A stretch of 64,000 nucleotides of DNA from Whitmania pigra (Eukaryota; Annelida; Clitellata; Hirudinida; Haemopidae), in assembly GCA_021613335.1 (NCBI GenBank), contig JAJTWR010000044.1, positions 353,501-417,500 of the forward strand, given 5' to 3'. The notes beneath the pieces are model-generated. The model did not search any database and was not told where the DNA came from. It worked only from the letters and a program-made list of their open reading frames with translations. Shown in pieces: positions 11,182 through 24,619 of the stretch. The position numbers and the translations under genes were made by a program. Numbering within the stretch: the stretch's first letter is position 1; every line of letters starts with the position of its first letter.

Positions 11182-11427
11182 TCATCCTCTCATGGTGATT
11201 GGAGGAAGTCTCTTGCCAAGTTTCAGCTCAGGGTACATTCTCATCCTCAGTTCAGGTCGAATGATTTTGAATCTTTTTCCACTTTTCAAGTTGTAATCGT
11301 TTCCATCTAAGTATGAGTGCAAATGATCTCTTTCCAAGGAAAGAAGTGAATCGTAATCGTCTGCGTTATTATCGGAGATGACCAATCCACAAAATATGAC
11401 CAGGAGAAAGATGCCCAAACGTTGCAT
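11182..11427 (-). CDS. Prohormone-like secreted peptide, copy 1 of 5
   Basis: The 81-residue product starts MQRLGIFLLVIFCGLVIS, a clear signal peptide. An acidic stretch follows with DDYDSLLSLERDHL and GNDY, then SGKR. Next comes the peptide FKIIRPELRMRMYPELKL, a GKR site and the C-terminal LPPITMRG. Gly-Lys-Arg is the standard site for dibasic cleavage followed by amidation, so the middle peptide and, via the terminal Gly, the last one could be amidated. I start at 11427 rather than at an upstream in-frame ATG (11448). A 3' splice signal, tttgcag on the minus strand, lies 8 bases before it, and all the other copies begin just after such a site. An untranslated 5' exon is therefore likely. 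This copy alone has FK instead of SGR before IIRPELRMR. The family is not recognised. Confidence 0.85.
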   Translation of the reverse strand: MQRLGIFLLVIFCGLVISDNNADDYDSLLSLERDHLHSYLDGNDYNLKSGKRFKIIRPELRMRMYPELKLGKRLPPITMRG

Positions 11428-12050
11428 CTTTGAATCTGCAAATTGCAAATAATTTAATATAAAAGCTTTTAAGGTTATTTAAAAAATTATAATGCTATTA
11501 ACAGATATTATTGATAGATAGGACGATAAAAAAAAGGATGTCATTTTTATACAAATTAATTGAATAAGTAAAATAAAGTCGATATTTAGACTCATATTAA
11601 CATGTGCTAAAACTCTTTAAGGTCTTGCTGTTGACTGATGTGACGAAACAATTGCATGGCTTTTATAAAGAAAAGTCTTGTTGACAATTATTCGGCTGAT
11701 TTCATCTAATAAAAATATGCGTGCAACGTCTTCCGAATAATAAACATAAATTCTACTTTTTATAAGAAAATAAAAAATGTTCATTAGTGCTTGTATCCGG
11801 ACCTTGATAATCAAATGTCCACACTTCAACGTGTAATGGCAATTGTCAGCAAGGGCTGCCTTGTGCGATTTAGAAGAAAACACAAAGCAAGCTTTCCTTG
11901 TTTCTGGGTTCCTTGGCTTTTCATTTCCCCCCAGTCTCGTACTCCTTCCAAATACCAGCTTGTTTCGATACATTCACGCCCAGGTCCATAAGAGAATAAC
12001 GAACGAACAAAGCAAAATTTTTTATCTTTTCAATAGTACATTCAAGATGT

Positions 12051-12471
12051 TCAAATTCTTTATAACAAAGTTCTCTGAAACGGCGTTTTCCTTCATCTAT
12101 AGGGAAGCTTGGCAATATGGGCTGAAAATAGCCCATTGAAATAAGATAAGCTCGTTGACAATCTGTAGTTATTGGTCCTCTAATACCTGAATCGTGATTT
12201 CCAAGTTATTGATCGAATTCCACTTTATCAATGGTGCGGCTGTGTTGTTATTGCTACAAATTGCTTCAAATTCTTTATAACAAAGTTCTCTGAAACGGCG
12301 TTTTCCTTCATCTATAGGGAAACTTGGCAATATGGGCTGAAAATAGCCCATTGAAATAAGATAAGCTCGTTGACAATCTGTAGTTATTGGTCCTCTAATA
12401 CCTGAATCGTGATTTCCAAGTTATTGATCGGATTCCACTTTATCAATGGTGCGCTGTGTTGTTATTGCTAC
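12051..12471. repeat. Tandem duplication of a ~207-bp unit
   Basis: Unit 1 (12051-12257) and unit 2 (12266-12471) are nearly identical, differing at only a few bases, with an 8-bp spacer. Each reads on the minus strand as a short frame with GYFQPILPSFPIDEGKRRF and ELCYKEFE. That frame may be part of a decayed mobile-element protein. The near-identity implies recent duplication. Confidence 0.85.
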
Positions 12472-12479
12472 CCAAGTTT

Positions 12480-12960
12480 TTTTTTGTTTGCAAAATTTCA
12501 AATTATTGTCTCAGGCTTCTTTTATTTGATCCACTGAATCCATTATTTCATTTAATACCAATCTTATCAAGGTATTTGGAGCCTCTTAAGCTCTTCTTTT
12601 GTTCTGTAATTCTTGATCACGTTGTAACATTCTAGTAAGATGCTCATATTTTCCAACACATTCTATTCTGTCTAGTTCTATGTCAGATGTAATAGTAGCT
12701 GACAATAATGACTGGTTTTCCGTTATGGGTTGCTCAGGCTCCGATTCTTTTCTAAATTAACTCATCCTTATTGCTAAAGTTGCCGATTCAGCATTTATTT
12801 CAATAACTTTTTCATCAAATGACTTTGACTTTTGAAGATCTAAATATGTTGCTGAAGGTAATTGTTCCAAACAAGGACGTTTTGCAGCCTCAAACGGATT
12901 CTTAGTGGAACCTTTTTTAGTCAAACTTTTAACGTAAATCTTGTAATCGTTATTTAATTG
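12480..12960 (-). pseudogene. Degenerate coding-like stretch of unknown origin
   Basis: The minus strand has a lysine-rich frame (KNPFEAAKRPCLEQLPSA, 12757-12950). It continues after a stop with residues resembling a helical segment (ECVGKYEHLTRMLQRD). It is interrupted and resembles transposon-borne protein remnants, but I cannot name a family. It abuts a truncated SINE and the 207-bp duplication. Confidence 0.35.
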
Positions 12961-12969
12961 TTTTAATAA

Positions 12970-13080
12970 GGGGGCGCTCCCTGTGCAGTGCAGGCTGGGT
13001 TGCGAGTACAATACGCAACCACTGTCGTTTTACCGCCGCATCCAGGTACGCTATCCATTCGGTCAACCTGCTGTGCACAT
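12970..13080 (-). mobile_element. Truncated tRNA-derived SINE copy
   Basis: It matches the head half of the SINE at 60002-60181. The 'gcagtgcaggctgggtt' segment, the 'taccgccgca' block and the 'atccattcggtcaacctgc' A-box region are all recognisable. The tail half that carries the LINE-like end is missing. Confidence 0.75.
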
Positions 13081-22061: not shown

Positions 22062-22582
22062 CTTATGCTGTACCTTAATATAAATTGTTTAATTTTAAAA
22101 TCGTACTGTATCGTGCAGAGTAACTTCGATGTTGCTCTGATAAATCTGCAATTCGCGAAGTTTTTTTAATATAGGCTGTCTTTATTTGCAATTATTTACC
22201 TGATTTCACACAATATTCTCAAGTGTGTACTTAAGTATTGATCAAACCTCGAAGACAAATAATTTCTCGTTTTTCCTTAGCTAATGATTTTAAAGGCAGT
22301 GATAGTTAATTGGAAAAGCATCTCATCTATAAATTTATCGACTAATAAACATCTGCACTGGTTTTTATTCAGAAATTGTCATCGTAACTAAATTTTATAT
22401 GTGCAACATGATCCAAATTCTTCATGATCAAAATTCTTCACATAATGAATATTTAAGAATAATAATTCTAAAGTTATTTTTACTCGTTTCGTTCCGAACA
22501 CTATTTTTCCATTGTTAGGCCACTGACTCGGTCCGTGAAATAATCAAAAAAAATAATAAAAAAAACTAAGTATAAAAATAAG

Positions 22583-22921
22583 TAATAATAATAATAATAA
22601 TAATAATAATAATAATAATAATAATAATAATAATAATAATATATAATAATAATAATAATAATAATAATAATAATAATAATAATATAATAATATAATAATA
22701 ATAATAATAATAATAATAATAATAATAATAATAATAATAATAATAATAATAATAATAATAATAATAATAATAATAATAATAATAATAATAATAATAATAA
22801 TAATAATAATATAATAATATAATAATAATAATAATAATAATAATAATAATAATAATAATAATAATACTAATAATAATAATAATAATACTAATAATAATAA
22901 TAATAATAATAATAATAATAA
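22583..22921. repeat. Long (TAA)n microsatellite
   Basis: About 340 bp of TAA triplets, with rare ATA slips and two ACTA variants near the end, lie upstream of peptide gene 4. Confidence 0.97.
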
Positions 22922-24017
22922 TGTTAGGTAATAGGTGTACTTTTATTTCCTAGGTCTTAACAATTGGTATTATGAATTGTTTATAAGTTCATGAACAGGG
23001 ACGTAATTTGGGGGGGCGCAATGGGAAACTTGGTCGTCAATGGTCGTCTCCTCAAGTTGCTCGAGGGTTTACCCCTCTTGAAAAATGCTGAAATGACGTT
23101 CCTGTTCATAAATATAAATAGCATTTATTAAGCCCTTATTAAGATAAGACACCATTTGAAATAACTTGGTAATGCATAAACTTAAACTCCATAGTTCTGA
23201 CCTTGACCAAATATTATCTTTCTGTGCAATTTTCTTGTTATCAATTTTTCTATGAAATGGAAATATGTCCGACCCCGGATTCATTCTGAAAAGAGTCTTG
23301 ATTAGTTGAAAATGAAACAACTTGAAAGTGGAATGAAATATTTTTACTATCATCCTCTATGAGCTCTGCTCAGATTTAGAAATTTCTAGAAGGGAGAATG
23401 TAACAAAAAAATGAGGACCATAGTATTCTAATTGATGTTAATGATTACTTTTTAATTAAATTTTATTAACCAAATTATTACTTAACTTGTTGTTTTCCAC
23501 AATTTAAGTTTTCAAACGTTCTATAATAGACAATTTGTATAATAACTTAATTTAGTTTGGTCTCTGATATTCACAGTCAGGCCCATATTTAAGGGGGCTT
23601 AATAACTTACTTCATTAATTACTAATTTTATTGATGGCCATTTACTTTGTATGGCAATCTCAAGTTTTTTTAAGTGTAATCGTTTCTCAATATGTTTTGC
23701 CACTTTTATTTGCTTATTCCATAAAAAGTTCAAGGTAAGACTAGCATAGATTTAGTTACTCTTGCAAGTGATTTAGTTACTCTTGCAAGTGATTTGTTGA
23801 AAACTAACCTATAGATGTATAATCTACAAAAGTTCATCATCTCACTGATTGTTTATTCTTATTATTTCCTGCAAATCTACAAAGGAGCAAGAATATTTTT
23901 CTACAAACCAGCCATAGATAGATTGCTTATATGCCTTAGAAAGGTAATCAACCAGAATTTTTTAATTGAAAACATTTTTTATTTAATAACAATTTCTTCT
24001 AATATCTTTATTATAGA

Positions 24018-24136
24018 ATTATTATTATTATTTATTATATTATTATTATTTTTTATATTATTTTTATTATTATTATTATTATTATTATTATTATTTTTAT
24101 TATTATTATTTTTATTATTATTATTATTATTATTAT
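24018..24136. repeat. (ATT)n microsatellite
   Basis: ATT triplets with T-run interruptions. The long leucine-rich open frame across this stretch is an artefact of the repeat. Confidence 0.95.
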
Positions 24137-24370
24137 CATATCGTGTACTATTTTTTATGACAGATTACCATTTAAAAAGTCATTTAGTCCATTCTTTAGG
24201 TCTTCTTCAAAATGTTCAGTTTATTTGCAATAATTTATTTTGTACTGGATAACAAAATTTCGGTTTACAACTTCTATAAACATTTTATTCTCAATACCAA
24301 ACTTCCATTTGCACAAAATATTATCAAATTACAAATTGCCAAATCTTATTAACGTTAACTAGTGTACAAG

Positions 24371-24619
24371 TCATCCCCTCATTGTAATTGGAGGAAGTCT
24401 CTTGCCAAGTTTCAGGTCAGGGTACATTCTCATCCTCAGTTCAGGTCGAATGATTCTTCCACTGAATCTCTTTCCACTTCTCAAACTGTAATCGTTTCCA
24501 TCCAAGTAGGAGTTCAAATGGTCTCTTTCCAAAGAAAGAAGTGAATCGTAATCGTCTGCGTTGTCGGAAAGGACCAATCCACAAAATATGGCCAGGAAAA
24601 ACACGTCGAAAAGCTGCAT
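24371..24619 (-). CDS. Prohormone-like secreted peptide, copy 5 of 5
   Basis: The 82-residue product has a signal peptide at 1-18 (MQLFDVFFLAIFCGLVLS) and an acidic Tyr-containing spacer at 19-47. A SGKR site follows at 48-51, then a 20-residue peptide at 52-71 (FSGRIIRPELRMRMYPDLKL), GKR at 72-74 and LPPITMRG at 75-82. The ATG lies 3 bases after a minus-strand aaactag acceptor, again implying an upstream untranslated exon. The Tyr residues beside Asp could be sulfated. This copy comes closest to a family consensus. A secreted signalling peptide is the best inference. An antimicrobial or other secreted peptide is possible, but the amidation sites favour a neuropeptide or hormone. Confidence 0.86.
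   Translation of the reverse strand: MQLFDVFFLAIFCGLVLSDNADDYDSLLSLERDHLNSYLDGNDYSLRSGKRFSGRIIRPELRMRMYPDLKLGKRLPPITMRG

Follow-up and report, generated by a model that had tools for sequence, protein, structure and literature searches.

Precursors of amidated neuropeptides in annelids, such as those of the FMRFamide, myomodulin and GGNG families, combine a leader, dibasic cleavage sites and a glycine as amidation donor with a short conserved product. Another plan is known from the dermaseptin-type peptides of frog skin and the superfamilies of cone snails. There, tandem genes for secreted peptides have a common leader, an acidic pro-part and KR sites. Here, we describe a cluster of five small genes in a 64,000-nucleotide stretch of the genome of the leech Whitmania pigra (contig JAJTWR010000044.1, positions 353,501 to 417,500; hereafter the window). 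The cluster likely represents a restricted family of prohormone-like precursors of predicted amidated peptides. That these peptides serve as an internal messenger is a reading to which we give about an even chance. The C-terminal motif of the family, PPITMRG followed by a stop codon, recurs in a second cluster of secreted-peptide genes on another contig (here C192), and this link is new.

Architecture and selection at the window cluster

The initial annotation proposed five minus-strand genes between positions 11182 and 24619, four of which share one plan, and the listing of open reading frames (ORFs) bears this out (Table 1). The precursors span 77-83 amino acids with the leader ATG as start. 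The ORFs of copies A, B and C were listed from upstream TTG codons (11182-11448, 13489-13740 and 15274-15558), and the leader ATG sets their 5' ends at 11427, 13722 and 15522. Copies A, C, D and E consist of a hydrophobic leader, an acidic segment containing tyrosine (e.g., NADDYDSLLSLERDHLNSYLDGNDYSLR), SGKR, a basic peptide around RIIRPELRMR with a predicted length of 18-20 residues, GKR, and LPPITMRG directly before the stop codon. Copy B keeps the leader and a variant of the core, with NKR replacing GKR and no donor glycine at its end. A hydrophobic stretch follows the ATG in all five copies, consistent with a secretory leader as judged by hydrophobicity, and the secreted part of each is free of cysteine. 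Among window ORFs of 50-150 amino acids, only A, C, D and E combine a hydrophobic start with G[KR][KR] (three distinct tails for the four genes; one in the reversed-sequence control). Dibasic sites with a glycine donor (SGKR, GKR) and a terminal glycine had been taken as marks of amidation. Every copy except B has them, as does P0001, the one relative found in protein databases.

We suggest that the leader targets the precursor for secretion and that proteolysis at SGKR and GKR would then free the acidic segment, the basic amidated peptide and LPPITMR-amide. Predicted [M+H]+ values are 826.497 for LPPITMR-amide and, for the basic amides, 2332.351 (copy A), 2430.358 (C), 2512.390 (D) and 2490.395 (E). 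Once released, the peptides might signal through a receptor, most probably within the animal itself, as hormones or neuropeptides. Transcription, cleavage, amidation, receptor action and tissue are all predicted here from sequence.

The genes are under purifying selection, with dN below dS in all ten pairs of the five copies. Among A, C, D and E, dN ranges from 0.07 to 0.13 and dS from 0.20 to 0.49. The regional and flank figures cover these four copies, copy B being left out. dN and dS reach 0.197 and 0.413 in the leader, 0.078 and 0.553 in the acidic segment, 0.110 and 0.130 from SGKR to LK, and 0 and 0.228 in LGKRLPPITMRG, where the six pairs sum to 11 synonymous differences and no amino-acid difference. 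Conservation of the product by selection is clear for LPPITMRG and for the coding sequence as a whole, with gene conversion as a possible alternative. Chance ORFs are ruled out by the ten pairs with dN below dS together with the terminal motif, which occurs at seven exact places in the genome and at two loci only. Mean identity over the six pairs is 0.86 in the secreted part versus 0.67 in the leader, and this stronger conservation of the product supports a hormone-like role as an internal messenger.

Sequence similarity among A, C, D and E in blastn comparisons is confined to the coding sequence plus at most about 15 bases. Otherwise, the flanks have one 34-bp stretch of 88% identity common to D and the B/C region. 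For flanks of 300 bp, none of 12 comparisons beat the best of 50 shuffles, and one tied. Given that similarity is exon-limited despite a dS as low as 0.20 (pair C-E), the copies appear to be old duplicates held alike by gene conversion or selection. Exon-limited gene conversion among the four (dS 0.2-0.5) is possible. Splice-acceptor-like NCAG sequences lie 3-8 nt upstream of the ATG in four of the five window copies, E being the exception, and in several C192 genes.

Table 1. Genes of the window cluster and predicted products of copy E (positions in the window).
Feature	Position	Strand	Description
Copy A	11182..11427	-	81-aa precursor, common plan, shorter basic peptide FKIIRPELRMRMYPELKL; TTTGCAG 8 nt upstream of ATG
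Copy B	13489..13722	-	Divergent 77-aa relative with RIIRQELRMR, NKR, VPSAIMNR; TTTGCAG 8 nt upstream of ATG
Copy C	15274..15522	-	82-aa precursor, common plan; splice-acceptor-like TTTTTGCAG 3 nt upstream of ATG
Copy D	21810..22061	-	83-aa precursor, common plan, basic peptide FSGRIIRPELRMKHFPEMRL; TACAG 6 nt upstream of ATG
Copy E	24371..24619	-	82-aa precursor, reference copy
Copy E, predicted basic peptide FSGRIIRPELRMRMYPDLKL	24407..24466	-	Residues 52-71, SGKR before, GKR after
Copy E, terminal LPPITMRG	24374..24397	-	Predicted LPPITMR-amide

A restricted family and a second locus with its terminal motif

The window family has a restricted distribution in the databases searched. A tblastn search of copy E against the genome (178,173,256 bases, 381 contigs) at E <= 10 hits nothing but the five window places (5 candidates scored), with copy B detected at E 0.0045. 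Searching with copy B recovers the other four at E 1.5e-4 to 0.0035, hence the same five places, plus one match at E 0.6 with an internal stop. The pattern IIR-x-ELRM matches exactly at the five copies only, and one mismatch yields six places versus five in the reversed control. Among 5.8 billion proteins, copy E and then a six-row profile each retrieve a single protein, P0001. It is unnamed, 83 amino acids long and 83% identical to the query (79.5-84.1% to A, C, D and E), shares the plan, and is represented by two member sequences from a single 3.4-Mb contig.

The remark in the initial annotation that the core matches no known neuropeptide family holds in Pfam, NCBIfam and PDB sequences, where copy E, queried without its first methionine, has no match at E <= 10. 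Matches of the mature part to PDB entries for mS38 (E 0.44) and CspB (E 0.81) were dismissed as chance. The strings RPELRMR, LPPITMR, IIRPELR and PPITMRG occur in none of the 5.39 million papers searched; most subscription papers lie outside that scope, so this absence does not mean that the family is unpublished. Taken together with the profile search, these results argue against any known family covered by the collections searched. An origin from bacteria or phages was likewise rejected, with no matches in phages and none of 75 pattern matches in prokaryote genomes confirmed.

PPITMRG before a stop codon has exactly seven matches in the 178 Mb, namely the four window copies and three places on C192 at 652.9, 667.7 and 675.3 kb, with none in the reversed control. 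One mismatch adds a single place on contig C169 (L020). This match and another on C89 (L005) are pattern-search matches outside both clusters, and the C169 stretch holds no leader-type ORF. On C192, the genes at 667.7 and 675.3 kb each specify a predicted secreted precursor of 55 amino acids ending in AALPPITMRG. The two arose by recent duplication and have similar flanks, and the 652.9-kb copy is decayed. The codons of LPPITMRG differ between the two loci at synonymous positions.

The C192 copies belong to a cluster at 620-676 kb, with more genes at 1130-1147 kb (L027-L036, L058). The cluster comprises at least 14 genes for small secreted peptides, with a common 19-residue leader of the MK-x-L-V-L type and hypervariable products. 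Leader and product lie in one open frame, four genes are Cys/Pro-rich, and all but one of the 14 have a cysteine at leader position 13. The genes were picked by a hydrophobicity scan, by tblastn or by a leader pattern including this cysteine. Three items were left out of the set, namely the doubtful 673098, the decayed 652869 and 1147172, whose leader continues into a repeat, and the near-identical pair 667716/675186 was taken out of the 91 pairs. Over the remaining 90 pairs, identity is 0.49 in the leader, a value biased upward by leader-pattern picking, versus 0.16 in the product. A leader more conserved than the product, as expected of hypervariable exocrine peptides, is thus found in the C192 group and not in A, C, D and E. 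Pfam matches of three members are weak and under curated cut-offs (best OAD_gamma, E 0.0046), and one member compared with PDB sequences has no match. At 1147172-1147861, the duplicated leader of the 1134.9-kb gene runs into a long ORF of HPSIHPSVRPS-type repeats. The 620-710 kb region holds one more hydrophobic-start ORF with a GKR site, apparently unrelated (none in the reversed control).

The window and C192 clusters likely share ancestry. Leader identity across clusters is 0.298 versus 0.169 after shuffling, and none of 2000 shuffles reach 0.298, in a test biased upward by the same leader-pattern picking. Profile comparison with hhalign gives an E of 2.5e-4 over 19 columns and a probability of only 43%. 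The selection bias, this probability and whole-protein searches that miss the other cluster make common ancestry likely rather than proven. The terminal octapeptide, with its synonymous codon differences, is a stronger link between the loci than the similarity of the leaders.

A nine-row profile of the C192 group retrieves six proteins at E <= 10. Four of these (P0002-P0005) match genes of this genome exactly and therefore likely come from this species or one very close to it. P0006 is related to the 1130/1134-kb type. P0007, a foreign sequence, is akin to the LPPITMRG type; KR precedes its EMELPPITMRG, and WNDP follows.

Weighing the possible roles

The earlier inference that the window genes encode signalling peptides stands in part. 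The prohormone-like architecture, purifying selection, the plan shared with P0001 and the lack of a family match favour it. It is weakened by LPPITMRG also ending hypervariable peptides of C192.

Several further observations weigh against an internal messenger. The C192 versions have no dibasic pair ahead of LPPITMRG. In P0007 the motif is non-terminal and, since WNDP follows, its glycine would be no amide donor without further cleavage. LPPITMRG is hence not always an amidation signal, and the predicted amidation is not universal. Five tandem genes are unusual among neuropeptide precursors, and a tandem, narrowly distributed family is about equally compatible with gland (exocrine) peptides and with neuropeptides. 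The profile search of 5.8 billion proteins (4025 candidates scored) finds nothing beyond the nameless P0001, and whole-protein searches from either cluster miss the other. The acidic "spacer" is about as conserved as the peptides, which is unusual in prohormones. From SGKR to LK, dN/dS is 0.85 on 10 synonymous changes, a ratio due to a dS of only 0.13 in that stretch and, alone, no proof of constraint on the basic peptide, for which the evidence is weak.

An exocrine role is the strongest alternative, though we consider it somewhat unlikely. The window genes could form a conserved arm of a leech secretory-peptide superfamily of skin, salivary or clitellar glands, comparable to the peptide families of frog skin and cone snails. 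The peptides would then target hosts, prey or microbes outside the leech. This role would fit the tandem arrangement, the limited distribution and the probable relationship to the C192 cluster, and also the similar leader of that cluster, its hypervariable products and its three places with PPITMRG before a stop (one decayed). The excess of cross-cluster leader identity over shuffled sequences points the same way, but it is inflated by the picking of C192 genes. The leader similarity might also be convergent, and the hhalign probability is low. The window product is also more conserved than its leader, the opposite of hypervariable effector families. A related and improbable scenario links both roles. 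In it, LPPITMR-amide would be a signal common to a conserved, hormone-like cluster and a fast-evolving secretory cluster. An endogenous messenger might have been taken up among the exocrine peptides, or an exocrine peptide might have become a messenger, similar to the weaponised hormones of venomous animals.

Antimicrobial precursors appear more doubtful still. Here, the acidic pro-segment would neutralise a cationic peptide freed by KR cleavage, and frog-skin precursors have a similar layout, in which leader, acidic piece, KR and basic peptide follow one another. The predicted net charge of the basic peptide with amide is +4 in all four copies, against -4 for the acidic segment of E. However, the helical hydrophobic moments of the four basic peptides are low (0.13-0.22) and the core is broken by proline. 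The strict conservation of LPPITMRG is left unexplained by this model, and copy E lacks a Pfam or NCBIfam match. Least likely, and very improbable, is a small secreted protein that functions uncleaved and whose basic pairs are coincidental: the conserved acidic segment and the C192 motif without a preceding dibasic pair would fit, but neither Gly-Lys-Arg site varies among A, C, D, E and P0001, the secreted part has no cysteine in any of the five copies and E matches no PDB sequence.

The neighbours of the window cluster are ordinary genes (TANGO6/RTP1, SDA1, a V-ATPase d-type subunit, GH31 and an ankyrin-KH protein). Rfam and tRNA scans of the window gave no matches. Repeats include a direct repeat of 189 nt at 12050-12453 (99% identity, 215 nt spacing) and, at 19484-20586, long inverted arms of a G+C-rich CGACAAAACAGCCCCG-type repeat with 95-96% complementarity. 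A repeat resembling this type begins directly 3' of the C192 ORF at 665.6 kb. A fragment at 18776-18976 bears a Tc3-type transposase helix-turn-helix. Genome-wide, there are 58 Pfam Antistasin matches and one partial Pfam Hirudin match (19/64 positions, E 2.2e-4), each found in none of 14 control genomes, as befits the genome of a leech.

Significance and comparison with known systems

Leeches have long served as models for neural circuits, and their secretions are bioactive. A multi-copy family of predicted amidated peptides without match in the searched collections, together with a second set of at least 14 genes, provides peptides of predicted mass that could be sought in nerve cord and gland extracts. 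The motif that links a conserved cluster to a hypervariable one would offer a tractable example of how peptide signals and secreted effectors turn into each other in evolution.

The window family resembles the amidated neuropeptide precursors of annelids in its leader, dibasic sites, glycine amidation donor and short conserved product. Unlike these, it has no match in family libraries, its genes are tandem with a single copy of each peptide per gene, and one relative was found beyond this genome. The plan of frog-skin and cone-snail superfamilies fits the C192 cluster well, whereas in the window cluster the product, and not the leader, is better conserved. The C192 genes differ from the window family in having no RIIRPELRMR core, no KR ahead of LPPITMRG and a hypervariable, in some cases Cys/Pro-rich, remainder. 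The two clusters are alike in their similar 19-residue leader and in PPITMRG before the stop codon, carried on C192 by two intact genes and one decayed copy.

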